This document shows positions 22,901 to 62,414 of a stretch of DNA of 64,000 bases, piece by piece. Below the pieces are notes generated by a model. That model was not told the origin of the DNA. It saw nothing but the letters and a program-made list of their open reading frames with translations, and made no database searches. The stretch lies in IMG/VR virus record IMGVR_UViG_3300020183_000015, positions 1-64,000 of that record; one strand, given 5' to 3'. Numbering within the stretch: the first letter of the stretch is position 1; every line of letters begins with the position of its first letter. The stretch is from a virus. Made by a program: the position numbers and the translations under genes.

Positions 22901-23617
22901 CCAGCTCCTTCAGTAACACCAACACCAACACCTACTATGACCGTGACACCTACGGTCACACCAAGCCCTATTCCTGGTTTAACACCAACGCCAACACCTA
23001 CAATTACAGTAACTGCAACAATTACACCTACACCAACACCTTCCGCGGCGGCAGCAAAAACATCATATCTATTCATAGAGCCTGTAACAGGAGCAACAAA
23101 TATTGGTCAATGGATGTTCGACGGAGGAAGAGACTTCTTTGGATTTACAAATTATAGTCAACCTACTCAAAATGTACCATTATTTAATTTAGATATGAAC
23201 AGATATGTTGACTTTACAGGATGGACTTCAGGTTTATTCCCAACAATAATAACTCAAAATGTTCCTATTTCATCTGGAGGGTTAGATTCTTTTGGGAACT
23301 CAATAGTTGCATTTAACTTCACAACAACCGAAGTTCTTGAAAATACGGTACCTGTTGATGCTTGGTATACTTGGATTATACCAGTGGCGGCTACTAATTT
23401 TGAAAGGCAAATAATAATTGATCTAAATGACAATGGAAATCCTAATCTTTTAACTGCCGTTCACACAGAAGATACAATAAATTATTATACGTTTACGTAT
23501 ACAGGAACGACACTTCCGACCGCAACTTACCGTGTTTATACAACTTACCCAAGTCCGATATTTAAAATATTGAACAACAAAACTATTTATTTTAGAGGAA
23601 ACGAAGTAGAACCGTAA
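19910..23617 (+). CDS. Large stalked tail-fibre protein with Pro-Thr linkers and Cys-rich knots
   Basis: 1235 residues from the ATG at 19910; an in-frame ATG at 19889 adds seven residues but overlaps the candidate promoter. Residues 1-275 form a beta-rich head domain. A Cys-dense knot (about residues 285-350) leads into a Pro-Thr linker (about 353-368). A beta domain follows, then a second Pro-Thr linker (about 607-620), a second Cys-dense knot (about 625-665), a large lectin-like region with a WGGGTQGLHEN loop (about residues 870-880), and a third linker (about 989-1046) ending [12 protein letters not shown] before a C-terminal beta domain. It is probably an adhesin-type fibre. Its stop overlaps the start of the collagen-like gene (TAATG), so the two are co-translated. 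Confidence 0.75.
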   Translation: MAYQNINQYNYPKLKLQLVYDGQDMSLASDEKNFNEEVVFSPYLIAQTYGKKLPVYFDIDNPLTWIPKELTYKNYDQTNIFVSQNYYEPDGLDLDCFKVDTACDIGLTGIDNGLVNQMTGKTITFTNGLFNDFLKFQRLYFDRRLKMFQVTGYTGTYNRFSAITQQTLYEVVSKDNIAVGKYHELYGGFYQGFHKLFGYDYDILPNRVNKGWTVEMLLKPRLFEEYQPGPGETTLNEIYPRNKNMFFYWGTRAENKFYHHANGSPWNYSGYTRVTSPLYNCIETCACCNTGVTNSRCIYVYPPRSQNNQHDPHVNYGCNVCNGNPTPQCGCSCGQLPCLECGWECQTHTCAPASPTPTPTPTPTTVPVSCENCENQINLPLPGNSISYVSGITISASGSGDITTNGLPTGFIDDCGFINLQNSIALGQNVPFGSPYTYTLTFSQPVNNISIVLLGYNIAFGPSPTEYFVITTNTGNNTPEITLCSGCCASISGNVITASNVNGDCVPETNSGAGQFNIRNSQPFTSLTISGNGGSSGSLITICDHTPLEINNAIITQDGYYLIVGDNQYLSFSGSNTIVPENLSENFYNDNWTEEVYVVDKLDFPNPSPTPTPTPTLPPYEFVCPPDKPSPTCSPQANICNSCGFPIDDCDGGTCSSCGCGCNQPKPNPWSSVEDTCEKDPKYDTISNNLAFKLGGDPKNPTICVRVLKITGACEVSGTCVTGVTYETGCTITEICTPPIYPYCLEVNPAWLELEHWFQIDAVWERYTYIESCDLFWYGGLGVLTREEYLQSLANNAPSLIAPPYTNDRAVAEKITLIQMNNLWLEQEKFRRGRLKIYVNGRKFFTIENFEEMIPRALSTDKERQLGVPFNMSWGGGTQGLHENLTFSACTDLLGNYIQDPECFPTNILDQSSLSGMTTNILLEENFGGTFDGGISQFRFYVEPLGADEVKHNFKLLKDKFLMFDPDCPVCDTEFCEPNDFTSIVIPVSPTPTPTTTPAPSVTPTPTPTMTVTPTVTPSPIPGLTPTPTPTITVTATITPTPTPSAAAAKTSYLFIEPVTGATNIGQWMFDGGRDFFGFTNYSQPTQNVPLFNLDMNRYVDFTGWTSGLFPTIITQNVPISSGGLDSFGNSIVAFNFTTTEVLENTVPVDAWYTWIIPVAATNFERQIIIDLNDNGNPNLLTAVHTEDTINYYTFTYTGTTLPTATYRVYTTYPSPIFKILNNKTIYFRGNEVEP

Positions 23618-26600
23618 TGTCAGGATTATATCAAAACCCAATCACACCTATATCAGTATTAGGACCAAGTTCGGTACCTAGAATAAAACCTTTTGGCACC
23701 AATTTTAGCGTTGTAGGGGTTGGTGGATACATGGAGGTTTACAATTTAAGTGATCTTTATTTTACCGTTCCACTGTCAACAACAGGAAGTATAGAAAACA
23801 GCGGAAATACTATTCCAATACAATTTTCAAAAGGTACAGGTTCTTCATTTTCTCCTGATGTATTAACATTAAACTCCGATAATATTTCTTCCGGTAGAAG
23901 GCGATTGGGTATGTTGGTGTACGTTTATGAAACAGATACATTTTATCAATATCATATAAACAATTATCAAACTTTATGGTCAAATGCTACGGGATCCACA
24001 GGTCTTGGTGGACCAACTGTTGTAATATCAAATTTTGGCACCACAATAAAATCAAATTCACCAAGTGGAATTCAATTTATAAATCAATGGTTATCTAACA
24101 AAATTGAGGGTATAAGTGGTGAAACCGCATCAACTGCTGTTTGGAGGCTTTTTGGTGTGTCGGGAGCAACGGGTACAAGTGGTACTTCAGGTACTAATGG
24201 GTCGAGCGGAACTTCAGGTACTAATGGAACAAGTGGTACTTCAGGCACAAACGGAACTTCAGGTACTAACGGCACAAACGGAACTTCAGGTATAGATGGA
24301 TTTAGCGGAACTTCAGGAACTAATGGTACTTCAGGAACCAACGGAACTTCAGGTATAGATGGATTTAGCGGAACTTCAGGAACTAATGGTACTTCAGGAA
24401 CCAACGGAACTTCAGGTACTAACGGTACAAATGGATCATCGGGTACTAATGGAGCTAGCGGTACAAACGGAACTTCGGGTATTAACGGCACAAACGGAAC
24501 TTCGGGTACTAACGGAACTTCAGGTACTAATGGAACTTCAGGTATAGATGGATTTAGCGGAACTTCAGGAACTAACGGAACTTCGGGTATAAATGGGACA
24601 TCAGGAACTAACGGAACAAATGGTACTAGCGGTACGAATGGAACCTCGGGAACTAACGGTACATCAGGAACTAACGGAACAAATGGTTCTAGCGGTATAA
24701 ATGGCACAAATGGTTCAAGTGGAACTAGCGGAACAAATGGTACGAGCGGGACCAACGGTACATCAGGAACCAACGGAACTAGCGGTACTAGCGGTACAAA
24801 TGGAACTTCAGGGACTAATGGTACTAACGGAACTTCAGGAACAAATGGAACTTCAGGTACAAATGGAACCTCAGGAACGAACGGTACAAGTGGTACTAGC
24901 GGCACCAACGGTACATCAGGAACCAATGGTACTAGTGGAACTAACGGTACATCAGGTACAAACGGAACTTCAGGAACCAATGGTACAAGCGGAACCAATG
25001 GTACAAACGGTACCTCAGGAACTAATGGGACTAATGGAACGAATGGTACATCAGGCACAAATGGTACTAGCGGAACTAACGGTACAAGTGGAACGAGCGG
25101 GTCATCAGGGACAAATGGTACTAGTGGAACTAACGGTACAAATGGAACCAGCGGAATAAATGGTACTAACGGGACAAGCGGTACCAACGGTACTAACGGA
25201 ACGTCGGGAACAAATGGTACTAACGGTACTTCAGGTACTAACGGGACAAGCGGTACCAACGGTACTAACGGAACGTCAGGAACAAATGGTACTAACGGTA
25301 CTTCAGGTACTAATGGAACAAGTGGTACGAATGGAACAAGTGGAAGTTCAGGGACTAACGGGACTAGCGGTACGAATGGAACTTCCGGATCAAGTGGTAC
25401 AAACGGAACAAGTGGAAGTTCAGGGACTAACGGGACTAGCGGTACGAATGGAACATCGGGAACAAGTGGATCTTCAGGTACTAATGGTACAAGTGGAACT
25501 AATGGAACATCAGGTACAAATGGTACTAGTGGAACAAATGGTACGAATGGAACTAGCGGTACTAATGGAACTTCAGGAACAAATGGAACTAACGGGACTA
25601 GTGGAACTAACGGTACTTCAGGAACAAATGGTACTAACGGAACTTCAGGATCAAGTGGAACCAATGGTACCAGTGGAACTAATGGTACTAGTGGGGCAAA
25701 CGGAACTTCAGGAACAAATGGTACAAATGGCACTTCGGGAACAAATGGGACTTCAGGTACAAATGGTACTTCGGGAACCAATGGAACCAATGGGACTTCA
25801 GGTACAAATGGAACCAACGGCACAAGCGGCACCAATGGGACTTCAGGAACAAACGGTACTAGTGGAACGAACGGAACTAATGGTACCTCAGGTACTAATG
25901 GAACTTCAGGAACCAATGGTACGAATGGAACAAGTGGAACTAACGGTACGTCAGGTACAAATGGGACTTCAGGGACTAACGGAACTAATGGAACTTCAGG
26001 AACCAATGGTACGAATGGAACAAGTGGAACCAACGGGACTTCAGGAACCAACGGAACAAGTGGTACGAATGGTACTTCAGGTACAAACGGAACATCAGGT
26101 TCTAGTGGAACAAATGGTACAAGCGGTTCATCAGGAACTAACGGTACTAGCGGTACAAACGGGACTAGCGGAAGTTCAGGATCTTCGGGTACAAATGGTA
26201 CATCAGGATCAAGTGGAATTAGCGGTTCTTCAGGAACTAACGGAACAAATGGAACATCAGGTTCAAGTGGTACGAATGGTACTAGCGGTACAAACGGAAC
26301 AAGTGGATCTTCAGGAACAAATGGAACTAGCGGAACTAATGGGACATCGGGTTCATCAGGAACTAATGGTACATCAGGAACTAACGGAACTTCAGGTACA
26401 AACGGTACGAGCGGTTCGTCAGGGTCAAGTGGAATAAATGGAACTTCAGGCACAAACGGTACCTCAGGATCAAGTGGAACTAACGGTACTAGCGGTACTA
26501 ATGGTACAAGCGGTTCTTCAGGAACTAATGGTACTAGTGGTACAAACGGTACAAGTGGGTCTTCAGGTACAAATGGCACATCAGGTACTAACGGAACATC

Positions 26601-29600
26601 GGGAACGAACGGTACAAATGGAACGTCAGGAACTAATGGTACATCAGGTACTAACGGAACAAACGGCTCAAGCGGAACTGATGGAACATCTGGTACAAAC
26701 GGAACTTCGGGAACAAACGGTACATCAGGAACTAATGGAACCAACGGTACATCGGGTACAAACGGAACTAATGGGACTTCAGGGACTAATGGAACTAACG
26801 GTACTAGCGGAACGAACGGGACTTCAGGAACTAATGGTACAAATGGATCAAGTGGAACAAACGGAACTAGTGGTACGAATGGTACATCAGGAACTAATGG
26901 AACTAATGGAACAAGTGGCACTAACGGAACTTCAGGTACTAACGGAACCAATGGTACAAGTGGAACTAATGGTACAGATGGTACTAGCGGAACGTCGGGT
27001 ACAAACGGAACTAATGGTACTAGCGGTACTAATGGAACGTCGGGTACAAACGGAACATCAGGATCTAGCGGTACTAATGGAAGTTCAGGTACAAACGGAA
27101 CGTCGGGTACTAATGGAACAAACGGTACTAGCGGGACAAATGGCACAAGTGGAACAAATGGAACATCGGGTGTAAATGGTACAAGTGGGACTAATGGCAC
27201 ATCAGGTAGTAGTGGTACAAACGGAACATCAGGTTCAAGCGGAACCAATGGGACATCAGGTACAAATGGAACTTCAGGATCTAGCGGAACAAATGGAACA
27301 AGCGGAACGGATGGAACAAGTGGTACATCAGGGACTAACGGAACAAGCGGAACGAATGGAACAAGTGGTTCTTCAGGAACCAATGGGACATCTGGATCTT
27401 CGGGCACAAACGGAACTAGTGGTACAAATGGAACCAACGGGACTTCAGGAACTAACGGAACTAATGGTACCTCAGGAACAAATGGTACAAACGGAACATC
27501 GGGAACAAATGGCACCAATGGAACAAATGGTTCAAGCGGCACGAATGGAACTAACGGTACAAATGGTACGTCCGGAACTAATGGAACCAACGGAACATCG
27601 GGTACCAACGGTACGTCAGGTACAAATGGAACTAATGGAACAAGTGGCACTAACGGAACTTCAGGTACTAACGGAACCAACGGGACTTCAGGGACTAATG
27701 GAACAAATGGTACTTCAGGTACTAATGGATCATCAGGAACTAATGGCACAAACGGAACTTCAGGGACAAATGGGACTAACGGGACAAATGGATCAAGTGG
27801 AACGAATGGTACTAGTGGAACAAATGGAACATCAGGAACAAATGGAACTTCTGGTACAAATGGTACAAGCGGCACAAATGGAACCAACGGGACTAGTGGA
27901 ACAAATGGTACATCAGGAACTAATGGTACAAATGGTTCAAGCGGAACTAATGGAACTAGCGGTAATAATGGAACTTCAGGAACAAACGGTACTAACGGAA
28001 CAAGTGGTACAAATGGAACAAATGGTACGAATGGTACTTCGGGGACTAATGGAACCTCAGGTACAAACGGAACAAACGGTACTAGCGGGACAAATGGCAC
28101 AAGTGGAACTAATGGGACAAATGGTTCAAGTGGTACCAACGGGACTTCAGGGACTAATGGAACAAGTGGTTCGTCAGGAACTAACGGTACTAATGGAACT
28201 TCTGGATCTTCAGGTACAAATGGAACTAGCGGAACTAATGGGACATCGGGTTCATCAGGAACAAATGGTACTAGCGGTTCTTCAGGAACTAACGGTACTA
28301 GCGGATCATCAGGATCAAGTGGTACTAATGGTACTAGCGGATCATCAGGAACTAACGGAACATCAGGATCAAGCGGTACTAATGGAACCTCTGGTACAAA
28401 CGGTACAAGTGGTACTAATGGAACCAATGGTACTTCGGGGACTAATGGAACAAATGGTACTTCGGGGACTAATGGTACTAGCGGAACAAATGGTACAAAT
28501 GGTACTAGTGGAACGAACGGAACAAACGGCACTTCAGGCACAAACGGGACATCAGGCACCAATGGAACTTCTGGAACTAACGGGACTAATGGAACCAACG
28601 GTACTAGCGGAACAAATGGAACTTCAGGTACAAATGGCACGTCAGGGACTAATGGGACAAACGGAACTTCAGGGACTAATGGAACATCGGGAACAAATGG
28701 TACGAACGGTACTAGCGGGACTAATGGAACATCAGGTACAAATGGTACTTCAGGGACTAATGGGACAAACGGAACTTCAGGGACTAATGGTACCAGCGGA
28801 ACTAATGGAACCAGCGGAATAAATGGTACTTCAGGAACAAATGGTACAAATGGTACTAGCGGAACCAATGGAACAAACGGAACGAATGGGACTTCAGGAA
28901 CCAACGGAACTTCAGGTACGAATGGAACAAACGGAACGAATGGTACTTCAGGAACAAATGGTACAAATGGTACAAGTGGAACTAATGGAACTTCGGGTAC
29001 AAATGGTACTAGCGGAACAAATGGTACATCAGGAACAAATGGAACTAATGGAACCTCAGGAACGAACGGTACGAATGGTACTTCAGGAACAAATGGTACC
29101 AGCGGAACAAATGGTACATCAGGAACAAATGGAACATCAGGTACTAATGGAACAAATGGTACTAGCGGTACAAATGGAACATCAGGTACAAACGGAACAA
29201 ATGGAACATCAGGTACAAACGGAGCATCAGGTACCAACGGTACTAGTGGAACGTCGGGAACAAATGGAACTAACGGAACTAGTGGTACAAACGGAACTAG
29301 TGGTACAAACGGAACAAATGGTACCAGCGGAACAAATGGTACATCAGGTACTAATGGAACAAATGGTACTAGCGGTACAAATGGTACTTCGGGAACCAAT
29401 GGAACCAATGGGACTTCAGGTACAAATGGAACCAACGGCACAAGCGGCACCAATGGGACTTCAGGAACAAATGGTACATCAGGTACTAATGGAACAAATG
29501 GTACTAGCGGTACAAATGGAACATCGGGCACAAACGGAACCTCAGGAACAAATGGAACCAACGGTACAAGCGGTACCAATGGTACAAGTGGAACCAACGG

Positions 29601-31788
29601 AACTTCAGGTACAAACGGGACAAATGGTACTAGCGGAACTAACGGTACTTCAGGTGTTAACGGAACAAGTGGTACAAATGGAACTAGCGGAACGTCAGGA
29701 ACAAATGGTACTTCAGGTGTTAACGGAACAAGTGGTACTAATGGTACATCAGGAACGAATGGAACCAGCGGAATGAATGGTACTTCAGGAACAAATGGTA
29801 CAAATGGAACTAGCGGAACAAATGGTACATCAGGAACGAATGGAACTAGCGGAACTAACGGTACTTCAGGTGTTAACGGAACAAGTGGTACAAATGGAAC
29901 CAACGGTACAAATGGATCTTCAGGAACAAGTGGTGGAGGTGGAGGTGGTTGTTTAACCGAAAATACTTTAATTGCATCAAATTCAGGTAGTTTCAATATT
30001 CGTATACAAGATGATCGTAGTACGGAATTTCTTTTTATGGGAAATTCGGAATGTGGTTGGAATGGTTGTTATTGGGACAACGGATCTTCATTTGGTTTAG
30101 CACCAAGACCTATTAGAGGTTCGGAAAGTTGGTTTGGTGTACCTTCACCAGTTGACGTAAGATCAGGAGATAGTATTAGATTATGTGGAAACATATATTG
30201 GGAAACCCCTTCTGAAACAAGTTATACACCTTCGTTTGTCGTTTCTTTATATTATTACCAATGTAATGATTTAGGAGACTTTATACCACTTACCTCAGTT
30301 ATATCACCAACATATTATACTTGGACTTCGGATTGGTTATGTTTTGATGTTTCACATACTTTTACGGAATATAAAAATGCTTGTGATGTATTTTTTGTTG
30401 TAGGGTTTAATATGATACAAGATAGTCCTGATGCAGCAAACCCAAGATTCACATATACATTAAATTATGAAAAAGATTGTTCAATTCCTGATGGTGAATT
30501 TTATGTTTTAAGAAACTGTTGTGAACCTACTGTAACAGAAATTATAGTAGGAAACGGTCTTACACTTGGTACTTTTTGGAGTGACGCTCAAGGTAACTGT
30601 TGGGAAATAGAAAGTACTAGTTTCACGGCACCAAATAGTTTTAGAACATTAGTTAATAATTACGCAAGTTGTGCGGATTGTATTTCTTCTAATGAATGTC
30701 CTGATAATGCAGTTATAAGTAGTTGTTGTGTTGAGGGAGTAGAATTTGTGACAGGATCTTTAGGTTTAACAATAGGTGACACTTTTGTTGATGATGACGG
30801 TTTATGTTGGGAAGTACTTACAGGGACAACCGCACCTGTAACTGCACCAACAATTACAATTGGAACAACTGGATATACCGATTGTGATGATTGTGAGGTT
30901 ACAAACCCTTGTCCTGAATTTTGGCTAATTGAGTCTTGTTGTAAAAATCTACCATCTGAAGTCATATCAATTCCTGCAGGAACTGTTTCGAATAGTCAAA
31001 CATGGATAGACTCAGATGGATACTGTTGGGCAATTGGTAGCAAAACAAATTCATTACCAACAAATTACGACATAACTTTAGTAACACAATATTCGTCTGT
31101 TCGTGATTGTACGGAATGTAATGATGATAACCCTTGTCCTGAAGTTATTTACACAACAATAAGACAATGTTGTGACCCGCTTCAAGTTGAAACTTTTTCA
31201 GCATATACAACTATTTCAGTAGGTTCAATAATCCAAGATATTAATGGTATTTGTTGGGAAGTAGTCGGGTGGGCATTTACTGGAACAATAACAATTGAAC
31301 CACCTTTAGTTTTCAAAAGTTATTCTACTTGTGAAAATTGCTTAATAACGGTAAACGGATGTCCTGATTATTATTTATTCTCAGCATGTTGTGAAACAGG
31401 ATTTACAGAAATTGCATACGGTGTGTTTATTACAGGTGCAACATACCAAGCATTTCCAAGTAGTAACTGTTATACTTGTGTATCTCTAACTACTGGTACA
31501 CCTACAATGAATTTTTGGTTTAGCCTGCATTTTGAATCTTGTGAGGATTGTATCGAAACATATCCATGTTCTTATGTTGAGATTTCAGATTGTTGTGGAT
31601 TATTACCCAATAAAATAGTCTATAATGATGGAAATTCTATTTTAAATGGTACTTTCTACGACAGTACAAGTGATAATTGTTGGTCTTTTGTTAGTTACAC
31701 TACAGGGCCTGCAACTTTAACTTTAGGTACGATTACTCCATATCTTGATTGTGATGTATGTATTTCTTTTAACGCATGTACAGCATAG
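23617..31788 (+). CDS. Giant collagen-like fibre protein with Cys-rich tip repeats
   Basis: 2723 residues. Residues 1-179 are a globular attachment domain. Residues 180-2105 are 642 near-perfect Gly-X-Y triplets, almost all GTS or GTN with some GSS, GIN and GID, and no proline in the array. A GGGGGG hinge leads to a beta domain (about residues 2110-2295) and six Cys-rich repeats of about 70 residues (2300-2723), each with CC, CW, CxxC and CP elements. The triplet pattern and length suggest a trimeric collagen-like rod; at the usual rise per residue this would be several hundred nanometres long. Thr makes up about a third of the rod, giving hundreds of possible O-glycosylation sites. It is coupled to the upstream fibre gene and followed by a terminator. 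Confidence 0.85.
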   Translation: MSGLYQNPITPISVLGPSSVPRIKPFGTNFSVVGVGGYMEVYNLSDLYFTVPLSTTGSIENSGNTIPIQFSKGTGSSFSPDVLTLNSDNISSGRRRLGMLVYVYETDTFYQYHINNYQTLWSNATGSTGLGGPTVVISNFGTTIKSNSPSGIQFINQWLSNKIEGISGETASTAVWRLFGVSGATGTSGTSGTNGSSGTSGTNGTSGTSGTNGTSGTNGTNGTSGIDGFSGTSGTNGTSGTNGTSGIDGFSGTSGTNGTSGTNGTSGTNGTNGSSGTNGASGTNGTSGINGTNGTSGTNGTSGTNGTSGIDGFSGTSGTNGTSGINGTSGTNGTNGTSGTNGTSGTNGTSGTNGTNGSSGINGTNGSSGTSGTNGTSGTNGTSGTNGTSGTSGTNGTSGTNGTNGTSGTNGTSGTNGTSGTNGTSGTSGTNGTSGTNGTSGTNGTSGTNGTSGTNGTSGTNGTNGTSGTNGTNGTNGTSGTNGTSGTNGTSGTSGSSGTNGTSGTNGTNGTSGINGTNGTSGTNGTNGTSGTNGTNGTSGTNGTSGTNGTNGTSGTNGTNGTSGTNGTSGTNGTSGSSGTNGTSGTNGTSGSSGTNGTSGSSGTNGTSGTNGTSGTSGSSGTNGTSGTNGTSGTNGTSGTNGTNGTSGTNGTSGTNGTNGTSGTNGTSGTNGTNGTSGSSGTNGTSGTNGTSGANGTSGTNGTNGTSGTNGTSGTNGTSGTNGTNGTSGTNGTNGTSGTNGTSGTNGTSGTNGTNGTSGTNGTSGTNGTNGTSGTNGTSGTNGTSGTNGTNGTSGTNGTNGTSGTNGTSGTNGTSGTNGTSGTNGTSGSSGTNGTSGSSGTNGTSGTNGTSGSSGSSGTNGTSGSSGISGSSGTNGTNGTSGSSGTNGTSGTNGTSGSSGTNGTSGTNGTSGSSGTNGTSGTNGTSGTNGTSGSSGSSGINGTSGTNGTSGSSGTNGTSGTNGTSGSSGTNGTSGTNGTSGSSGTNGTSGTNGTSGTNGTNGTSGTNGTSGTNGTNGSSGTDGTSGTNGTSGTNGTSGTNGTNGTSGTNGTNGTSGTNGTNGTSGTNGTSGTNGTNGSSGTNGTSGTNGTSGTNGTNGTSGTNGTSGTNGTNGTSGTNGTDGTSGTSGTNGTNGTSGTNGTSGTNGTSGSSGTNGSSGTNGTSGTNGTNGTSGTNGTSGTNGTSGVNGTSGTNGTSGSSGTNGTSGSSGTNGTSGTNGTSGSSGTNGTSGTDGTSGTSGTNGTSGTNGTSGSSGTNGTSGSSGTNGTSGTNGTNGTSGTNGTNGTSGTNGTNGTSGTNGTNGTNGSSGTNGTNGTNGTSGTNGTNGTSGTNGTSGTNGTNGTSGTNGTSGTNGTNGTSGTNGTNGTSGTNGSSGTNGTNGTSGTNGTNGTNGSSGTNGTSGTNGTSGTNGTSGTNGTSGTNGTNGTSGTNGTSGTNGTNGSSGTNGTSGNNGTSGTNGTNGTSGTNGTNGTNGTSGTNGTSGTNGTNGTSGTNGTSGTNGTNGSSGTNGTSGTNGTSGSSGTNGTNGTSGSSGTNGTSGTNGTSGSSGTNGTSGSSGTNGTSGSSGSSGTNGTSGSSGTNGTSGSSGTNGTSGTNGTSGTNGTNGTSGTNGTNGTSGTNGTSGTNGTNGTSGTNGTNGTSGTNGTSGTNGTSGTNGTNGTNGTSGTNGTSGTNGTSGTNGTNGTSGTNGTSGTNGTNGTSGTNGTSGTNGTSGTNGTNGTSGTNGTSGTNGTSGINGTSGTNGTNGTSGTNGTNGTNGTSGTNGTSGTNGTNGTNGTSGTNGTNGTSGTNGTSGTNGTSGTNGTSGTNGTNGTSGTNGTNGTSGTNGTSGTNGTSGTNGTSGTNGTNGTSGTNGTSGTNGTNGTSGTNGASGTNGTSGTSGTNGTNGTSGTNGTSGTNGTNGTSGTNGTSGTNGTNGTSGTNGTSGTNGTNGTSGTNGTNGTSGTNGTSGTNGTSGTNGTNGTSGTNGTSGTNGTSGTNGTNGTSGTNGTSGTNGTSGTNGTNGTSGTNGTSGVNGTSGTNGTSGTSGTNGTSGVNGTSGTNGTSGTNGTSGMNGTSGTNGTNGTSGTNGTSGTNGTSGTNGTSGVNGTSGTNGTNGTNGSSGTSGGGGGGCLTENTLIASNSGSFNIRIQDDRSTEFLFMGNSECGWNGCYWDNGSSFGLAPRPIRGSESWFGVPSPVDVRSGDSIRLCGNIYWETPSETSYTPSFVVSLYYYQCNDLGDFIPLTSVISPTYYTWTSDWLCFDVSHTFTEYKNACDVFFVVGFNMIQDSPDAANPRFTYTLNYEKDCSIPDGEFYVLRNCCEPTVTEIIVGNGLTLGTFWSDAQGNCWEIESTSFTAPNSFRTLVNNYASCADCISSNECPDNAVISSCCVEGVEFVTGSLGLTIGDTFVDDDGLCWEVLTGTTAPVTAPTITIGTTGYTDCDDCEVTNPCPEFWLIESCCKNLPSEVISIPAGTVSNSQTWIDSDGYCWAIGSKTNSLPTNYDITLVTQYSSVRDCTECNDDNPCPEVIYTTIRQCCDPLQVETFSAYTTISVGSIIQDINGICWEVVGWAFTGTITIEPPLVFKSYSTCENCLITVNGCPDYYLFSACCETGFTEIAYGVFITGATYQAFPSSNCYTCVSLTTGTPTMNFWFSLHFESCEDCIETYPCSYVEISDCCGLLPNKIVYNDGNSILNGTFYDSTSDNCWSFVSYTTGPATLTLGTITPYLDCDVCISFNACTA
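25162..25305 (+). repeat. Tandem 72-bp duplication inside the triplet array
   Basis: 25162-25233 and 25234-25305 are identical apart from one synonymous Ser codon difference (TCG versus TCA). This is direct evidence of recent in-frame expansion of the array. Confidence 0.85.
25756..25853 (+). repeat. 98-bp perfect direct repeat, copy 1
   Basis: Identical base for base to 29374-29471, 3.6 kb away in the same gene, despite general codon scrambling around it. This suggests a recent long-range duplication or gene conversion. Confidence 0.85.
29374..29471 (+). repeat. 98-bp perfect direct repeat, copy 2
   Basis: Second copy of the sequence at 25756-25853, in the same frame of the collagen-like gene. 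Confidence 0.85.
30514..31788 (+). repeat. Six Cys-rich protein repeats at the fibre tip
   Basis: Six units of about 70 residues. Each has CC near the start, a CW (CYTC in unit 5) near the centre, a CxxC motif and usually a CP at the end, for example SCCVE, LCWEV, CDDC, PCPE. A related single unit, ending YVDCGTC, closes the protease at 47935-49899. The Cys density suggests disulphides or metal binding in an exposed tip. Confidence 0.85.
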
Positions 31789-31826: not shown

Positions 31827-34751
31827 TTATTTTCTATTATCAATATAAATTATGACTTCACAATACCACTCAATAAAATGTTCATTCCATAAATCCCATT
31901 TTATATCTACACCATCTACTGAGTAAACTTCATAGTTATCAAATAGTGGTAAGATGTTATCTCTGAACCATCTGAATTTACATTTGTGAAAATTCTCATC
32001 ATCTCTTAAATGAAACTCAGTAACTATTTTTGGTACAGTTTTTAAAAACTCAATGTTTGATGGTTGAAAAACATCATACTCACCTCCCTCACAATCACAT
32101 TTCAAAAAATCGATTTTTTCAATGTTATTGTCATCTAAGAATTCTTTAAAACTAAATGTTGGTACACTTTCAGAAATGTTGTCCCAACTGATTTCTATTT
32201 TCTTTTTATCTGTAATTGCCCCTTGAATTATTTTTACATTTTCTCGACCAACATTTTTTTTCAATACCTCAACTTGATATGATAAAGGTTCCACAACAAA
32301 ACATTGTTTAGGATTTTTTGGTAATATTGAATATGTAAACGGCCCTAAAGAAGCCCCCAAATCTACAACAACATCCCCCTCCTCAACCTGAAAAATTCTT
32401 TCATAGATATTACCCTCAAATATTTCTTTGGTTACGGCATTTACATACCATTCACTTTTCTTTCCCCAATCAAATGAATGGTCGTTAAAATTTTTGTTCA
32501 TTAATTTTTTATTTATTATTTTGTTTATTTCAAAAATAACCATTTCGGATGTTATTTGTTTTGTACATTCAAACATCCTTTCAGTTTCTTTATGTAATGG
32601 ACACCAATTCCAGTCACCCGCGTCTAATCTTTCTTTATTGAAACATCCATGACAGACGTTTTCATTTATTACCCGATAAGTGTCCAAAGTAGTTTCTGTC
32701 CATTTTTCACTAAAACCTGAAATCAAAACAATTGGTAGTTCGCAAGCCCATGCTAACCATGACAACCCTGACCCAAGACCAACAAAAAATTCACAAGTTG
32801 ACAGATCGTCAATAACTTCTTGTAAATCACCTCCTTTGAATATTTTTACACCTTTTGGGTAATTGTTATTCATGTAACTATCTCCTTCTCTTGAGTAAAT
32901 CATACATTCATATCCTTGTAATGTGAGATAATCAACAACTTCTTGCCAACCATTTGGGTTGTTCCAATATTTTGCCTGTGCCGTTGAGTGAAATCCAATA
33001 CCAACCTTTTTTTGTTTTTTTACTTTTGGTAAATTTAATTTGGGTCTAATTTCTGTATAATCTAATCCTAAGATGTCACTAGCTGTTTTTTGAAGTGGGT
33101 GACTTTTAACATCGAATTTGTGATTATTTAAATTAATTTCCCCGTCGTCTTTATAAAACCACCCTAATTTGTATTGTGCATAAACGTTATAAACAAGTTC
33201 ACCAGGTTCTACAAATTCAATATCGGGGTATTGATCTTCAAACAAGAAGTTCATAAATGTAGAAACTATTAGTTCACAGTCGTGTTTTTTTCTAAACTCC
33301 TCACAATATGGAAACCAAGCCATTGTATCACCCAATGATTTAGAACCAAATGAAATATAAACCCTACGACCTTTTAAATCTAAAGTGTTTTCATAAATCA
33401 ATTCATTGTTCTCTCTAATTTCAGTTTTCCATTTTGTGTAATATTCTCTATTAAGTTTTACCCAATGATTTATTTTTGATTTATTGTAATATATTAAATC
33501 TTCTCCATCAAAATATTTAATTTCAAAATCATTGTCACTTTCACCTAAGACTTCTAAAAATGGATTAACAACAAAATGTTGATTAATCACATAATCATTT
33601 TTTATTTTAAAATTTGAAACAAACGGTGACTCCATAACTTTATTATAGAAACTCAACAATTGAGTACCAAAATCTTTTTCTATTTTCAACTTGTAACTAT
33701 TAGTTTCTGAAATTAAATTTAATAAGTCGTTTTTAATTTGTTCGGGATTATTACTAGATATTGGATAAATGTAATTTGAAAACATATTCACATACTGAGG
33801 AAGATCTCTTGCTAATATCTTCAAACCATAATTTATTGATTCTCTAATAACTAAAGGATTACATTCCCAAGTAGAATTAAACATTAAAGCGTCAGACGCA
33901 ATCATAAATTTCTCAACGTCATTTCTTTCGCCCCAAACAGTTACATTACTTGGTAAACTATCCATTATAGGTTTCCAATAATCTTCAAAATTTGGCGCTT
34001 GATTTCCAATGAAATGAAAATGAATATCAGGATGAGAATTTTCTAAAAGTCTTGCAACCTCAACTCCTTCTTTTTGATTTTTACCTGATGTCCATAACCC
34101 AACATTTATTATGTGTGTTTTCATAGAGTCCAATCCCAATTCATTTCTTACCTCAATTTTTTTCAAAAGTGGAACTTTATGATCGTCATAAAATATTTCT
34201 AATTCATTCAGAATTGGTTTAACCTTATCTTCATATGGATAAATTATTAAATCTTTAGGTGATACCGTATTTTTAAATGAAACTTCGCCGTGGTAAGGTG
34301 TTACAAAACAATAATAATCAGGATTTAATCTTTTGTTGTTGTTACCATCAAACCAAATGTTATGACATGTCTCAACAATTTTATATGATCTTGAGTTATC
34401 ATAAAGTTCATTTAACAACTCAAAAGGTATTTTATTAAAACTCTCAAACGCCTCAGGTAATTCTTCTGAATGAACAATATCAATATTATTTTCTTTTATA
34501 ATTTTTATAAGATTATATTTTTTTTCGGTTTCTGTTGTACCACCCAACGAATAAAAATGATCTTTACCCAATAACTCTATGATTTTATTTCTTTGGACAA
34601 TGTATGTGTCACTAAATTGTGAATATTCGATCAAAAAAATCTCAATCTCATCTTTGTATTTTTGTAGTAATTCAATTCTTTTTAAAACAAATTGTGGCAT
34701 TCCACCAGTTGATAGGTGGGGTGTTAAGTATAACAATCTAATCTTTTTCAT
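31827..34751 (-). CDS. Three-domain enzyme: GT4 + TibC-like O-heptosyltransferase + FkbM methyltransferase
   Basis: 974 residues. Residues 1-390 are a GT4 domain (LLYLTPHLSTGGMPQFVLKR; THIINVGLWTSGKNQKEGVE; NSTWECNPLVIRESINYGLK with the donor-binding Glu). Residues about 395-745 match the GT9-related TibC/Aah family of autotransporter protein O-heptosyltransferases: VYISFGSKSLGDTMAWFPYC, GIGFHSTAQAKYWNNPNGWQ, FVGLGSGLSWLAWACELP, and the four-Cys iron motif at C700, C703, C717 and C729 with the DWNWCPLH core. Residues about 785-974 are an FkbM methyltransferase (VVVDLGASLGPFTYS; DFLKCDCEGGEYDVFQ). TibC/Aah enzymes add heptose to Ser/Thr of repeat adhesins, so this enzyme beside a 642-triplet Thr/Ser rod suggests it acts on phage fibres. 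No membrane segment is seen. Confidence 0.8.
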   Translation of the reverse strand: MKKIRLLYLTPHLSTGGMPQFVLKRIELLQKYKDEIEIFLIEYSQFSDTYIVQRNKIIELLGKDHFYSLGGTTETEKKYNLIKIIKENNIDIVHSEELPEAFESFNKIPFELLNELYDNSRSYKIVETCHNIWFDGNNNKRLNPDYYCFVTPYHGEVSFKNTVSPKDLIIYPYEDKVKPILNELEIFYDDHKVPLLKKIEVRNELGLDSMKTHIINVGLWTSGKNQKEGVEVARLLENSHPDIHFHFIGNQAPNFEDYWKPIMDSLPSNVTVWGERNDVEKFMIASDALMFNSTWECNPLVIRESINYGLKILARDLPQYVNMFSNYIYPISSNNPEQIKNDLLNLISETNSYKLKIEKDFGTQLLSFYNKVMESPFVSNFKIKNDYVINQHFVVNPFLEVLGESDNDFEIKYFDGEDLIYYNKSKINHWVKLNREYYTKWKTEIRENNELIYENTLDLKGRRVYISFGSKSLGDTMAWFPYCEEFRKKHDCELIVSTFMNFLFEDQYPDIEFVEPGELVYNVYAQYKLGWFYKDDGEINLNNHKFDVKSHPLQKTASDILGLDYTEIRPKLNLPKVKKQKKVGIGFHSTAQAKYWNNPNGWQEVVDYLTLQGYECMIYSREGDSYMNNNYPKGVKIFKGGDLQEVIDDLSTCEFFVGLGSGLSWLAWACELPIVLISGFSEKWTETTLDTYRVINENVCHGCFNKERLDAGDWNWCPLHKETERMFECTKQITSEMVIFEINKIINKKLMNKNFNDHSFDWGKKSEWYVNAVTKEIFEGNIYERIFQVEEGDVVVDLGASLGPFTYSILPKNPKQCFVVEPLSYQVEVLKKNVGRENVKIIQGAITDKKKIEISWDNISESVPTFSFKEFLDDNNIEKIDFLKCDCEGGEYDVFQPSNIEFLKTVPKIVTEFHLRDDENFHKCKFRWFRDNILPLFDNYEVYSVDGVDIKWDLWNEHFIEWYCEVIIYIDNRK

Positions 34752-36825: not shown

Positions 36826-38967
36826 ATGGATTGTTCCGCATTAATTATTGAAAGTGTTAATTACGATGGTGAGTTGGCTAATATTATATTTACGCCAGAC
36901 AATGAAGATATCTCAATAAATTTAGGAGATGTTGTGTTACCCTTTTTATTTGAGCCTTGTAATCTTGTACCTCCAAGAGAAAGATTCGGATTCTATACAA
37001 TTTTGACATATAACCCAAGATGTACAAACTTCCTTAGAGTACCAAGAACAACCCCAACACCTACACCGACACCAACACCGACTCATACTCAGACACCAAC
37101 CCCTACACCAACAATGACCCCTACACCTACGTTTGATCCTTGTTTGGTACCAACACCCACACCAACAGTTACTGTTACTGCAACAATAACCCCAACTCCT
37201 ACACCAACCCCAACAGAAACTTGTACAAACCCTTGTGGGTGTCCAAACCCATCACAAACACCCGTACCAACAAATTCACCTTTACCTCCACCTCCACCAC
37301 CTACATGTACAAACCCTTGTGGGTGTACTTTAACCCCAACGGTAACACCAACTCATACACCAACTCCCACACCAACTAACACACCAACTCCCACACCAAC
37401 CCCAACAGAAACAACTGACGCTGCCTCTCTATGTGTACCATTATTTTTAGACAGAGACAATGCAACATCATCATCAAATTTATATTCTTATAACCCAACA
37501 ACAAATATCACAACTTCGCTAGCACTACCTTTGTCTTCAGGATTTTTTGGTTTAATAATGGCTCAAACATCTAATAAATTGTGGATTTGTGAAAATTCAA
37601 CTTACACAATTCGAGAATGGGACATAACAATTAACCCTTGGTCGGCAGTTTTTTCAAGAGACATTACATCACCTAGCGGGGTTCCAAGTTTGGGGGCCTT
37701 GGCAGGGGCTCTTTGTGTTTATAGAGATCCGATAACAAACATTGTAAATCCAAATCTTTTAGTATCCATGGGATTCCGTAGTGGCGGTGGTTTTGAACTT
37801 GTTTTAGTTGATATAAGTGGATCTGTATGGAGTAAAATACCAATATTCAATTTAACAACGTTGAGTGCCGATAGACAAGTAAGTGCTATTGTTATGAATA
37901 CTAATTCTAAAATGATAACATTAAATTTTGATACAACTTTATCTCAAAAATATGTAACTCAATTTAAATATGTTTCGGGTTCTTGGCAAGTGGATATTGA
38001 CATATTGATTCCAGTACCAACTTTAATTCATTCATTATTTCAATGGAATAATGATTTTTATATTGGTTCATATACCCCTTTAGGTTTTGGGGCTCTTAAT
38101 TTAATACAAACTTCACAACCATATACTACCACATTTCTTGGAAATCTTTTACAATCTGAAACAATAGAGTCTTCTCAAATACCCGGTTGTGTAACATTGG
38201 AGTTTGATCCAGTTCAATTAAGTTGTGCGGTTTACAGTAGAGGTATTAATGGTTACATTGAAACTTACGATTTAATCAACAACACTTTAACACAAGTTAC
38301 ATTACCAAATGATAGTTTTAGTAATTTTCCTATAACACATACATCTACTAAATTGTGGAAAGCCGATCAGGCCAATAAACTAATAAATGAATGGACGACA
38401 TCAACTCCGGCTTCTATGTCATTTGTAAGAACAATAACGGTTACGGCAACCTTACCAGGAAATGGTTGGTTATGGCCTATGGGATCAATTACAGACACAA
38501 GATTAATTATGTTTACAACAAATTTAGTTAATAGTATAAATGTAATTGAGATGGATATCACATTCAATACCGTCACAAACTCAGAAATTACACAATTGTT
38601 TCAAGTACAAGCACTTAATTTAGGTGAGTCAATAATGTATACCTCGAACAATAAAATCATATTAATGGCAAGAAAAAACTCGGCCCCTTATACGGATTTA
38701 TATTTTATACAACAATATTCATACCCTAACGGTGTTTTGGAATTCGACATAAGTACTTTACCTCTCGGAGTTCCAAGTATATCGAGATATTATTCTTTAT
38801 TTGAAGAATCTAATCGAATTTATATTGTTAGAATGGACTCAACAGGGACTTCTATTTTCTTGGTTGGTTTAACTCCGCCTCACACATTTACACCTGTTTG
38901 GTCATCAACAAGTACAAATTACGGAGTTTGGTCAGCATCAAGAACATGTAACACAGTTAATTTTTAA
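36826..38967 (+). CDS. Stalked fibre protein with C-terminal beta-propeller-like domain
   Basis: 713 residues. Residues 1-72 form a small head ([20 protein letters not shown]) that may dock to the virion. Residues about 76-197 are Pro-Thr linkers interrupted by two CTNPCGC turns (about 125 and 162). Residues about 205-713 repeat a strand pattern such as [17 protein letters not shown] and [16 protein letters not shown], suggesting a beta-propeller built from KLW-type blades, a common carbohydrate-binding or surface-display fold. No enzymatic site is seen. The long Thr-rich linker is a natural O-glycosylation target. It is flanked by a GT9 gene and a small fibre gene and has its own late-type element. 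Confidence 0.7.
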
Positions 38968-41274: not shown

Positions 41275-41366
41275 ACTCGGTGAACGTGTATTTTGTATCA
41301 TGTTTACCTGGATACCTCAGCTTAAAACAATTTACATTTCTTGTATTTTACAATATTTTTATTTTT

Positions 41367-42611
41367 ATGAAAATATTTGTACAAATTGCGTCTTATAGAG
41401 ACCCACAGTTAATACCAACAATTCAAAACATGTTGGAAAATGCTAAAAATCCAAATAATTTAGTCATATCAATTGCAAGACAATTTAATCCTGAGGATAA
41501 ATTTGATGACCTTTCGGAGTATGAAAATGACAAAAGATTTAAAATTTTAAACATAGATTATAAAGAATCAAAAGGTGTTTGTTGGGCAAGATACCTCACT
41601 CAACAACAATATGATGGAGAAGAGTATACATTACAAATAGACTCTCACATGAGATTTGAAAAAAATTGGGACAAAACTTTGATTGATATGATAAAAGATC
41701 TACAATCAAAAGGACACAAAAAACCTTTGTTGACAGGTTACGTGTCATCTTTTGACCCTGACAATGACCCAAAAGGTAGGGTTATGGAGCCTTGGAGAAT
41801 GGCCTTTGACAGGTTCACACCTGAAGGTGTGGTTTTCTTTCTACCTGAAGTCATTCCAAATTGGAAAAAACTTGATGGTCCTATACCTGCAAGATTCTAT
41901 TCGGCACACTTCTGTTTTACTTTAGGTGAATTTTCTAAAGAAGTACAACATGATCCCGAATTTTATTTCCACGGCGAAGAAATATCAATTACTGTAAGAT
42001 CATTTACTCATGGTTATGATTTATTTCACCCACACAAAGTTGTTATATGGCACGAATACACACGAAAAGGAAGGACTAAACAATGGGACGATGACAAAAA
42101 TTGGTATAAAAAAAATGAGGCGTGTCATATAAAAAACAGACAGTTGTTAGGCGTTGACGGTGAAATTTATAGTGGAGACACTAATGAGTGGTTTGGTACT
42201 GAAAGAAGTATACGTGACTATGAAAAGTATTCGGGGTTGTTGTTTGAAAAAAGAGCAATACAACAATATACATTAGATAAAAGTTATCCACCAAATCCAT
42301 ATGATTATAATACTGAAGATGAGTGGAAAGAAACTTTTTTATCAATATTCAAACATTGTATTGACGTTGACTTAAATAGACTACCTGAAACTGATTATGA
42401 TTTTTGGGTTGTTGCATTTCACGACAAAAACGATGAAACAATATACAGACAAGACGCAGGTCTTGACGAAATAAACCGATTGAAAACAGATCCTGACGGT
42501 GTTGCTAAAATATGGAGAGAATTTAATACCCAAGAAAGACCAACTTATTGGGTAGTTTGGCCACACTCAACATCCAAAGGATGGTGTGAAAGAATTGTAG
42601 GAGCACTTTAA
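41367..42611 (+). CDS. GT60-type polypeptide GlcNAc-transferase-like enzyme
   Basis: 414 residues from the ATG at 41367; an upstream in-frame GTG at 41280 is less likely because the added residues are atypical. The family signatures are clear: IFVQIASYRDPQLIPTIQNM (residues 3-22), LQIDSHMRFEKNWDKTLIDM (about residues 90-109) with the DxH metal site, ARFYSAHFCFTLGEF, FYFHGEEISITVRSFTHGYD (about residues 199-218) and VVIWHEYTRKGR. GT60 members include Skp1 hydroxyproline GlcNAc-transferase and trypanosome mucin Thr GlcNAc-transferases, which start O-glycans on protein side chains. Residues about 315-414 are an extra C-terminal domain. It heads a five-gene operon and follows a Thr-rich collagen-like fibre, so a fibre-directed role is plausible. 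Confidence 0.85.
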   Translation: MKIFVQIASYRDPQLIPTIQNMLENAKNPNNLVISIARQFNPEDKFDDLSEYENDKRFKILNIDYKESKGVCWARYLTQQQYDGEEYTLQIDSHMRFEKNWDKTLIDMIKDLQSKGHKKPLLTGYVSSFDPDNDPKGRVMEPWRMAFDRFTPEGVVFFLPEVIPNWKKLDGPIPARFYSAHFCFTLGEFSKEVQHDPEFYFHGEEISITVRSFTHGYDLFHPHKVVIWHEYTRKGRTKQWDDDKNWYKKNEACHIKNRQLLGVDGEIYSGDTNEWFGTERSIRDYEKYSGLLFEKRAIQQYTLDKSYPPNPYDYNTEDEWKETFLSIFKHCIDVDLNRLPETDYDFWVVAFHDKNDETIYRQDAGLDEINRLKTDPDGVAKIWREFNTQERPTYWVVWPHSTSKGWCERIVGAL

Positions 42612-59063: not shown

Positions 59064-62000
59064 ATGGCTACTTCATCTAACAGTAAGGTTTTTGTCTCAC
59101 CAGGAGTCTATACATCAGAAGTTGATCTAAGTTTTGTTGCTCAAAGTGTTGGTGTTACCACACTTGGTGTTGTAGGGGAAACTATTATCGGACCTGCTTT
59201 CGAACCAATTTTCATAACGAACTATGATGAGTTTACAACTTATTTTGGGGGTGTATCTCCTGAAAAATTTGTTAACACACAAATACCAAAATATGAAGCT
59301 GGATACATTGCTAAAGCTTATCTACAACAATCCAATCAATTGTTCGTTACAAGAATATTAGGACTTTCTGGGTATGACGGAGGACCATCTTGGTCAATTA
59401 CCACAACGGCAAATGTTGATTGCTCAACAATCGACGTTTGGTGTTTATCAGGAGCAACAATTGATTGTGTTCCTGTTTGTCTATCCGCTAAAACTGAAAC
59501 ATTTATCATCCCTTTTACGGCATGTTCTAACTCAGTCACAACAGTTGAGTTCCAAGGAACCTTCCCTTCGGAAATCGCAAACTTATTGAATACTCCATAT
59601 ACAACTGGTGATGGAGGAACTTCAACAATTGGAACACAACTTCAAGACTTGGTTTTTGATGTGATCACCGATCCACTACCTTTTGATGCTGAAGATCATA
59701 CAATTTCTTATTTTGGTTCGATTGAAGATGGTGATTATAATACATTGGATGCTATTTTCACAGCTTCTACAAATGTTTACAATGTACCAAATATTGGTTT
59801 CTCAGCAAACACTTTGTGTTCAGGATTCAATGATCCTTGGTATTACTCACAATTCGAACACGAATTAAACGGAAATGGGTATACAGGATTCTCTTTCTTT
59901 TCAATTGTACAGAATCTTCAGTATTTGTATCCTACACCAACATCAACACCGTTGGCTTCAGTAACACCTACACCAACACCATCTCCTCAGAACCCATGTA
60001 TTACACCATCGGCTCATGTTAACCCAACACCAACACCATCTCCAGTCCCTGTAAACTGTTACTCAGGTGAGCTACACATTAAAGTGTACTATTACACAGG
60101 AACTTCATATACACAATATGATGATGTTGTAGTTGGAACTTTCAGATCGAGAGGTATTTCATACTACACAAGTTCTGAAAACCCAACTTATGAGATTACT
60201 GGTCTTACCAATGTTAACATTGATATGACAGGACAGTATGTTTCAGTATTAAAAAATCCTTATGAGAAATTTGCAATTAACTGTACTAATAGATATGGAC
60301 AACAATATACTTTTGAAACTTCATTCTCTCAAAATGACCCAAGTTATGTTACAAAAGTATTTGGAGTTACAAACTTCCAAAAACCTCGTTTAGAAGTTCC
60401 ATTATTCTGTGAAGAAAGATTCCAATCATGGTTGAACTACGGGTGGAAAAAAGGATACATCAGAGGTTTGAACCCAAGTCTTGTAAGATTAGATTCAGCA
60501 CAAAGTGGAAATGTGCACTCAATCGGATGGTACTTAGACAGATACCAAACTCCGAGTTCTCCATGGGTTGTGTCCGAACTTAGAGGTAATAAAGTATTCG
60601 ACTTATTTAAAGTTTATACTATCTCTGATGGTGATGGAGCAAATACTCTACTTAAAGTGTCGATCGCAGACGTATCTTTCTCTAATAACAACTTTACACT
60701 ATTAGTAAGAGATTATTTCGATACAGATTCTAACCCTGTTGTGTTAGAAAAATTTACAAATTGTTCTATGGATCCAAATCAAAACAACTTTATTGGTGTT
60801 AAAATTGGTACGGTAGATGGTGAGTATAATTTAAACTCTAAATACATTATGATTGAGATTCATGAGGACGCTCCTATTGATGCTCTTCCATGTGGATTTA
60901 ACGGTTACAATTTCAAATTGTATCAAGGAGGAAAACCACCGTTCCCAATTATCAAAGCAAAATATGACTTTCCTGGTGAAGTTATTTGGAATCCGCCCTT
61001 TGGTTTGAGTACTGGAGTTGACGATGTTATCGTTAGTTCCGGTGACAACATCAGAAGGACTTACTTAGGTATTGGAAACTTCTATGGTTGGGATCCAAGT
61101 TATTATGAGTATATTGGAAAGAGAAATCCGAACAATACTTGTGATATTGACGGAATTGATTGGAACTACAGATCATCAGGTTTCCACATGGACAAAAACG
61201 CTTCTGGTATTACATTAGGTGCAGCATTCAGTACAAGTGGTGACCCAAGATTTATCTGTGGTAGTTCAACTTTCGATCAAGAACCTCAATTACCAACAAA
61301 TGATTATTACAGATTGTTCTCAAGAAAATTCACATTCTTGGTTCAAGGAGGGTTCGATGGATGGGATATTTATAGAGAATATAGAACTAACTCAGACCGA
61401 TTCGAATTGGGAAGAACAGGATACCTTTACGGAGCATGTCCTGACAACAGATATCCGAATGCAACTGGTTGGGGAGCATTCAAACAAATCGCAATTGGTG
61501 ATGGTACACAAGACTATGCAAACACTGACTTCTACGCATATCTTTTAGGTCAACAAACATTTGCAAACCCTGAATCAGTTAATATAAATGTTTTCACAAC
61601 TCCAGGTATTGATTTCTCAAACAATAGTAACTTGATAGAAAGAGCAATTAATATGATTGAGTTTAACAGAGCGGATTCACTTTATGTAACTACATGTCCT
61701 GATTACAACTTGTTCTTACCAACTACAACTGGTGTTGATGGATTAATTTACCCTCAAGAAGCGGTTAACTTGTTAGAAGATACAGGTATCGACTCTAACT
61801 ATACCGCAACTTATTACCCCTGGGTATTAACAAGAGACAGTGTTAACAACACTCAAATCTACATCCCACCAACTGCTGAGGTAACAAGAAACTTGGCATT
61901 GACAGACAACATTGCGTTCCCATGGTTCGCTGCGGCGGGTTACACTCGTGGTATTGTTAATTGTATCAAGGCTCGTAAGAAGTTGACACAAGAAGATAGA

Positions 62001-62414
62001 GATGTTCTTTATACAGGTAGAATAAACCCAATCGCAACTTTCTCTGATGTTGGTTGTGTAATTTGGGGTAACAAAACTCTACAAATTAGAGAATCAGCTC
62101 TTGATAGAATCAATGTTAGAAGATTATTGTTACAAGCACGTAAGTTGATTTCAGCAGTATCTGTAAGATTATTGTTTGAACAAAACGACGCACAAGTAAG
62201 ACAAGACTTCTTAAACGCTGTAAACCCAATCTTAGATTCGATTAGAAGAGACCGAGGTCTATATGACTTTAGAGTTACACTTTCTAGTGATCCACAAGAT
62301 ATCGACAGAAACCAAATGACAGGTAAAATTTATATTAAACCTACACGTTCACTTGAGTTTATCGATATTACGTTCTTTATTACACCGACTGGAGCTTCTT
62401 TCGAGAACATCTAA
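59064..62414 (+). CDS. gp18: Contractile tail sheath protein with very large insertion and Pro-Thr linkers
   Basis: 1116 residues, against about 659 for T4 gp18. The N-terminus (KVFVSPGVYTSEVDLSFVAQ; LGVVGETIIGPAFEPIFITN; DEFTTYFGGV) and the C-terminal third (PWFAAAGYTRGIVNCIKARK; LLLQARKLISAVSVRLLFEQ; LSSDPQDIDRNQMTGKIYIK) are clearly sheath. Between them, from about residue 115 to 840, lies an enlarged region with a Pro-Thr linker pair (residues about 289-332, YPTPTSTPLA and NPTPTPSPVP) and several Cys residues, then further beta domains. The sheath contracts to drive the tube through the cell envelope. Decoration domains on it may protrude from the tail and could be glycosylated. A strong terminator follows the gene. 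Confidence 0.93.
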   Translation: MATSSNSKVFVSPGVYTSEVDLSFVAQSVGVTTLGVVGETIIGPAFEPIFITNYDEFTTYFGGVSPEKFVNTQIPKYEAGYIAKAYLQQSNQLFVTRILGLSGYDGGPSWSITTTANVDCSTIDVWCLSGATIDCVPVCLSAKTETFIIPFTACSNSVTTVEFQGTFPSEIANLLNTPYTTGDGGTSTIGTQLQDLVFDVITDPLPFDAEDHTISYFGSIEDGDYNTLDAIFTASTNVYNVPNIGFSANTLCSGFNDPWYYSQFEHELNGNGYTGFSFFSIVQNLQYLYPTPTSTPLASVTPTPTPSPQNPCITPSAHVNPTPTPSPVPVNCYSGELHIKVYYYTGTSYTQYDDVVVGTFRSRGISYYTSSENPTYEITGLTNVNIDMTGQYVSVLKNPYEKFAINCTNRYGQQYTFETSFSQNDPSYVTKVFGVTNFQKPRLEVPLFCEERFQSWLNYGWKKGYIRGLNPSLVRLDSAQSGNVHSIGWYLDRYQTPSSPWVVSELRGNKVFDLFKVYTISDGDGANTLLKVSIADVSFSNNNFTLLVRDYFDTDSNPVVLEKFTNCSMDPNQNNFIGVKIGTVDGEYNLNSKYIMIEIHEDAPIDALPCGFNGYNFKLYQGGKPPFPIIKAKYDFPGEVIWNPPFGLSTGVDDVIVSSGDNIRRTYLGIGNFYGWDPSYYEYIGKRNPNNTCDIDGIDWNYRSSGFHMDKNASGITLGAAFSTSGDPRFICGSSTFDQEPQLPTNDYYRLFSRKFTFLVQGGFDGWDIYREYRTNSDRFELGRTGYLYGACPDNRYPNATGWGAFKQIAIGDGTQDYANTDFYAYLLGQQTFANPESVNINVFTTPGIDFSNNSNLIERAINMIEFNRADSLYVTTCPDYNLFLPTTTGVDGLIYPQEAVNLLEDTGIDSNYTATYYPWVLTRDSVNNTQIYIPPTAEVTRNLALTDNIAFPWFAAAGYTRGIVNCIKARKKLTQEDRDVLYTGRINPIATFSDVGCVIWGNKTLQIRESALDRINVRRLLLQARKLISAVSVRLLFEQNDAQVRQDFLNAVNPILDSIRRDRGLYDFRVTLSSDPQDIDRNQMTGKIYIKPTRSLEFIDITFFITPTGASFENI

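Follow-up and report, generated by a model that had tools for sequence, protein, structure and literature searches.

Collagen-like fibers in phages

Among described systems, the side-tail fibers EPclA and EPclB come closest to the fiber analyzed here. EPclA, from a prophage of E. coli O157:H7, is a trimeric fiber with a collagen stalk measured at ~0.29 nm per residue (PMC3368898), and the EPclA/EPclB family contains length variants that differ in multiples of three residues (Ghosh et al. 2012, PMC3368898). The fiber described below is encoded in a window of 64,000 nucleotides that opens a virus record of 133,946 bases, and has the same layout of an N-terminal domain, a Gly-X-Y rod and a C-terminal domain, with modular exchange of the parts. 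The EPclA/EPclB rod is 111 residues long, Pro-rich at X and charged, with a coiled coil beside it, whereas the rod in the window spans 1926 residues, contains no Pro and is almost uncharged; unlike those of EPclA/EPclB, its end domains match no known family.

We read this gene as encoding a modular tail or baseplate fiber of a contractile-tailed phage, in which rod length evolves by duplication and slippage, and give this explanation as a whole a probability of roughly 0.7. The reading follows from an anchor domain that precedes varied shafts, often after baseplate genes, and from a head that is common to other fibers.

Table 1. Coordinates of the fiber and of associated features in the window
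Feature	Position	Strand	Remarks
Upstream gene, 1242 aa	19889..23617	+	phrog_15511, unknown function
N-terminal anchor domain, 179 aa	23617..24153	+	116 viral loci carry relatives
Rod, 642 Gly-X-Y triplets (GTN/GTS/GSS)	24154..29931	+	followed by GGGGGG linker to 29949
C-terminal head, first part, ~184 aa, Cys-containing	29950..30501	+	homology is of the head as a whole
C-terminal head, end: six tandem ~70-aa Cys modules (CC...CW...CxxC)	30502..31788	+	
Second collagen-like fiber ORF, 663 aa	39283..41274	+	Pfam Collagen E 2e-53; PHROG tail fiber phrog_5073 E 3.6e-48
Contractile tail sheath	59064..62414	+	phrog_23 E 6.8e-55; tblastn to sheath genes of cultured phages

The fiber gene and its triplet array

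The fiber open reading frame (23617-31788, + strand) encodes 2723 residues without an internal stop. Its start codon shares its first base with the final base of the upstream gene, homologues of which (often only ~300-400 aa) lie directly 5' of the anchor in most members of the family. Glycine recurs at each third residue from 24154 to 29949, giving 644 triplets, 642 of them unbroken up to 29931, before the GGG GGG linker. The preliminary description had reported a near-perfect amino-acid repeat with mixed synonymous codons at 24154-29931, and so it proved: over the 644 triplets, GTN (320), GTS (248) and GSS (47) together make up 96%, with 29 others, and the units are spelled by 113 distinct 9-mers. 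Position X is occupied by Thr (571) or Ser (47) in 96% of cases, and position Y by Asn (333) or Ser (302) in 99%. Pfam Collagen (PF01391) matches the rod with an E-value of 6.8e-260. Pro and/or charged residues usually stabilize a collagen triple helix, although they are not strictly defining; these usual stabilizers are missing from the rod, which has 0 Pro, 0 Lys/Arg and 6 Asp/Glu.

Several other long open frames overlie the collagen arrays, because the triplets yield no stops in those frames. The antisense frame at 24084-29996 (-) and the +1-frame ORFs at 24701-29776 are forced by triplet composition, and the frame at 39399-40466 (-), over the second collagen array, by codon composition; all were rejected as genes. 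The abutting TAA/ATG junctions in the +1 frame exist because GIN triplets create them.

An array of this kind could in principle be a shorter repeat mis-assembled into a long one. Several related contigs do stop inside their arrays, among them two (L012 and L013) that are identical to the window up to that point and carry a 50-nt repeat near their ends. However, an independent contig (L014, IMGVR_UViG_3300020220_003659) holds the same 18.6 kb, complete array included, with zero differences; the longest exact repeat inside the array is 98 bp, below common read lengths; and the reading frame is kept across 5.8 kb. Likewise, the contigs L039-L044, which carry the array of the relative L042, agree base for base. 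We consider an assembly artifact very improbable, although repeats longer than 98 bp may have collapsed unseen.

A shared anchor with exchangeable shafts

The anchor domain has relatives in at least 116 uncultivated phage loci, with 54-100% identity among the 80 that were kept and 28 invariant columns in 44 sequences. What stands behind it varies: collagen rods of 35 to 1022 triplets, some of them truncated where the contig stops, other repeats or non-collagen shafts, and short tips. The 116 loci thus present a conserved N-terminal domain with exchangeable shafts and tips. This domain probably attaches the fiber to the virion. Searches of cultured phages, PDB sequences and PDB folds returned no match to the anchor, and BFVD returned one relative at 63% identity. 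An AF2 model of the anchor reached a pLDDT of just 70 and matched no solved fold, so no fold was assigned on this basis. In bacterial and archaeal genomes the anchor was found on just one 3-kb contig, labelled as a Euryarchaeota MAG, which is probably mis-binned and therefore gives no host.

Individual relatives illustrate the range of the family. One of them, L047, ends in a Peptidase_S74 fiber chaperone, which is typical of phage fibers. L042 (record G010) has an open frame of 4426 aa whose array reaches 1022 triplets, so 642 is not the maximum, and L034 (record G007) encodes 3993 aa with triplets of another style, GLS/GIS/GDS. Arrays in the GTN style are common in uncultivated phages, with at least 118 stretches found.

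A head found on other rods

The Cys-rich C-terminal head measures 612 aa as a whole. Over 563 aa it shares 32% identity (E 4.6e-65) with the head of fibers of 3313 and 3394 aa in phages of 291 and 274 kb, which carry 877 and 904 GTN/GTS/GTD triplets behind an N-terminus that is different from, and much shorter than, that of the window fiber. Head homologues were found in 24 loci by a single-protein search with L216, the Cys-module alignment being too little conserved for a profile search of viral contigs; they sit on the 877-904-triplet GTN rods, on GIQ/GSQ/GTQ collagen rods in proteins whose N-termini are unrelated, or on proteins free of a rod. Because the same head occurs on differing rods and with differing N-termini, the anchor, rod and head recombine as modules, each exchanged between phages independently of the others, and a spacer is the best reading of the rod.

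The head has no Pfam match, and hence there is no Peptidase_S74 at the C-terminus of the window fiber; it also matches no PHROG, and no relatives were found in cultured phages. A single Cys module was modeled by AF2 with a pLDDT of 81 and had no match among PDB folds, leaving its fold unassigned by this route. One copy of the ~70-aa Cys module also terminates (49678-49899) a protease-like protein encoded at 47935-49899.

Genomic context

The window encodes a contractile tail sheath (Table 1), and the record is therefore that of a myovirus-type phage; DNA polymerase, helicase and many glycosyltransferase genes are also present. Outside the window, the record (L094/L095) contains a baseplate cluster that includes gp25-like and gp6-like wedge genes; the fiber gene does not adjoin it. 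In one other branch of the family, three genes stand immediately ahead of the fiber gene, and their counterparts in the baseplate cluster of the present phage (80%, 51% and 35% identity) adjoin the gp25-like and gp6-like wedge genes. Linkage of the fiber to baseplate or tail genes is thus seen in many relatives, while in the window itself the fiber stands apart.

A second collagen-like fiber ORF (Table 1) contains four runs of 38+23+35+30 Gly-X-Y triplets in the GTN/GTS style. This ORF strongly matches the PHROG ‘tail fiber’ and ‘collagen like minor tail’ families (phrog_5073, phrog_1806, phrog_6320), whereas in the 642-triplet fiber the head is unmatched, the anchor had no counterpart in cultured phages, and the matches of the rod to these families may be compositional.

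Other genes of the record are worth recording in their own right. Thr-Pro-rich, mucin-like stretches occur at 36826-38967, 47267-47941, 47935-49899 and 59064-62414, the last of these being inserted into the tail sheath. The gene at 54283-55386 (-) encodes an Fe/Mn superoxide dismutase (PF02777, E 8.8e-41), ahead of which ~165 aa resemble a metallopeptidase with an HEWVH motif. In the baseplate cluster, L095:96-2018 encodes a protein with SprB-type repeats, and a phage DnaJ lies at L096:8833-9744. SprB-type repeats occur in gliding adhesins of Bacteroidota. Aquatic phages carrying DnaK/DnaJ have been reported with Bacteroidota hosts (PMC12619734). The SprB-type repeats and the DnaJ gene together hint at a Bacteroidota host.

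The fold of the rod

By the precedent of EPclA, whose stalk has Pro and charge, the rod is likely a collagen-type triple helix. At 0.29 nm per residue, arithmetic on this assumed fold would make the rod ~550-560 nm long, and that of L042 ~890 nm.

The unusual composition brings two other structures into consideration. The rod might be a mucin-like or glyco-collagen-like spacer, in which Thr or the N-G-T/S sites are coated with sugars by phage glycosyltransferases, lending stiffness or shielding. The window contains at least eight glycosyltransferase-like genes, including members of PF11397 and PF01755 (GT25); the rod offers 331 N-G-[ST] motifs and 96% Thr/Ser at X, and it is devoid of the Pro and charge that stabilize bare bacterial and phage collagens. 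The PF11397 family is otherwise known from protists. In the window, its gene begins 6 bp after the second collagen ORF (39283-42611 for the pair), a position that makes glycosylation a live rival, and close relatives of the gene are common in related phages. The family comprises polypeptide GlcNAc-transferases (CAZy GT60; PMC8724618). Yet over 43 related records, which are fragments, PF11397 was not associated with collagen, which was present in 9/15 records with the gene and in 19/28 without it. The gene also occurs beside fibers having no collagen, many rods of the family do not have the N-G-T motif (GLS/GIS/GDS, GSS/GTS), and phage glycosyltransferases also modify DNA and host surfaces. A dedicated glycosyltransferase that goes with the rod was sought in PF11397, the family tested, and this candidate was set aside on the same counts. 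A sugar-coated rod therefore seems unlikely, if worth keeping in mind. In a separate 974-aa protein at 31827-34751 (-), two glycosyltransferase domains, of group 1 and family 9, are fused to an FkbM methyltransferase domain.

Alternatively, the chains might form bundles of the polyglycine-II type, known from the snow-flea antifreeze protein and some phage adhesins, or be largely disordered, instead of winding into an intermolecular triple helix. Asn and Ser at Y are poor triple-helix formers in collagen host-guest peptides, and the rod has no Pro, no Hyp and almost no charge. Against a folded-back bundle, 642 unbroken triplets leave no turns. In addition, indels preserve the triplet register, the head also occurs on GxQ collagen-like rods of the ordinary kind, and other long shafts follow the same anchor. 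We judge bundles or disorder somewhat less plausible still than a sugar coat, and retain the collagen-type helix as the working fold.

Rod length changes in whole triplets

Pairs of near-identical strains, separated by one substitution at most, have arrays that differ in length by 1, 1, 7 and 27 whole triplets. L052 and L053 are one triplet apart at a 14-nt exact repeat, with 0 substitutions over 1375 codons, and L106 and L145 are one triplet apart at a 15-nt repeat, with 469 units identical. L062 and L066 differ by seven triplets within a 128-bp exact repeat, a location that, with short reads, may mean assembly collapse. L216 and L215 are separated by a single clean indel of 243 bp (27 triplets) between ORFs of 3313 and 3394 aa that are otherwise identical. 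Because strains this similar differ by whole triplets, array length evolves fast, and rod length is the fastest-changing property of the fiber. The proposal that codon scrambling limits loss of the array fared poorly in this light: the array is not frozen.

The contigs comparable to the window array are identical to it, and synonymous and nonsynonymous changes were consequently compared in relatives. An alignment of the L042 and L046 arrays has gaps only in multiples of a triplet, and the rod gives a pN/pS of about 0.23. These values support the strong selection on the protein postulated earlier: judged from relatives, the Gly-X-Y pattern is under purifying selection.

Neighboring units are spelled differently

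Codon identity between adjacent units was compared with a null in which whole 9-nt units are shuffled within their tripeptide type. In the window array it is 0.307 against 0.373 expected (z -5.0). The deficit is present in 16/16 arrays (pooled, 4440 observed versus 5242 expected, ratio 0.847, z -15.7) and in a further 17/17 arrays located by their sequence pattern, most of them behind unrelated N-termini, which makes 33/33 arrays, not all phylogenetically independent. The second collagen ORF shows it too, and ordinary control genes of the window do not. In the pooled data the effect fades with distance, from a ratio of 0.941 (z -6.6) at lag 2 to 0.994 at lag 3 and slightly above 1 at lags 4-5. 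Thr-Pro tracts, considered as a second test of neighbor-codon avoidance, were too few.

The lengths of exact matches locate the effect further. Across 30 arrays, matches between neighbors of up to 6 nt are near expectation, whereas runs of 7, 8 and 11 nt occur at 0.66, 0.55 and 0.42 of it; runs of 7-14 nt are depleted, with an onset at 7-8 nt, and more weakly with distance. At lags of 18 and 27 nt, just the runs of 8-14 nt are clearly depleted, to a lesser degree, and those of 18-24 nt or longer are more frequent than expected. Long exact repeats were set against a second null, codons shuffled within amino acids, whose maximum is ~34 bp; the window array exceeds it with repeats of 98 bp (25756/29374), 79 bp (24277/24340) and several of 47-56 bp, which are recent block duplications. 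The avoidance of exact DNA repeats suggested by the preliminary description thus holds at short range, where neighbors match codons 15% below chance and 7-14-nt runs are depleted, but not at long range, where repeats of 98, 79 and 56 bp surpass the null maximum.

Neutral synonymous drift under purifying selection might scramble the codons with no avoidance of repeats at all. The codon usage of the array, which is close to that of the genes flanking it, would suit such drift, as would the identity at a lag of three units, which equals the shuffle. Drift does not, however, account for deficits at lag 1 (0.85) and lag 2 that are absent from control genes, the former seen in every array, and a threshold at 7-8 nt is not a drift signature; we hold it to be highly unlikely as the full account. 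Such a spectrum would be expected if replication slippage required a minimum microhomology and duplication balanced it. The deficit apparently reflects either purging by slippage or selection against slippage-prone neighbors, for both of which the pattern is alike.

A model for a rod of changing length

A fiber of this design might work as follows. The 179-aa N-terminal domain would plug the fiber into the baseplate, as its conservation and gene order suggest. The 642-triplet Gly-Thr-Asn/Ser rod would then extend as a long, thin, trimeric spacer of collagen type, and the 612-aa Cys-rich head at its far end may trimerize the chains and contact the host surface. The rod would gain and lose whole triplets through block duplication and through replication slippage between adjacent units, the mechanism that the pattern of length differences suggests. 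Neighbors matching over at least 7 nt would be lost or selected against, leaving locally diversified codons beside scattered recent long duplications, while purifying selection would keep the amino-acid pattern of the rod. A bolder and tentative extension holds that Pro-free Gly-Thr-Asn/Ser rods with a contour length of 0.5-0.9 µm give adhesins a reach that evolves fast and can be tuned and that neighboring codons are selected specifically against slippage; if true, a DNA-level stability code would be laid over a protein repeat.

The model offers a measurable account of how a gene built of a single tiny repeat survives: duplication lengthens it, slippage alters it, and the survivors are spelled unlike their neighbors. 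Metagenomes would also become a source from which to read how mutation alters the length of phage fibers. The current rules of triple-helix stability would be put to the test by a collagen-like rod of such length that is Pro-free and almost uncharged, which is also a possible biomaterial.

Comparison with known repeat proteins

The Bacillus collagens of the BclA type, whose rods are glycosylated (PMC8968730), resemble the window rod in using a Thr-rich Gly-X-Y stalk that holds a head away from the particle. Bacterial collagens, however, mostly place Thr at Y and Pro at X, whereas the phage rod has Thr at X and Asn or Ser at Y. Spider silk genes (PMC3933166) likewise consist of long coding tandem repeats, but silk repeats are homogenized within the gene at the DNA level (PMC3933166), and neighboring units of the window array are less alike than chance. 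Collagen-like phage fibers as such are already known; what seems new, relative to the open-licence literature, is the extreme length of a Pro-free and nearly uncharged rod, together with a quantified, local anti-repeat spelling that sets in at a threshold of 7-8 nt.
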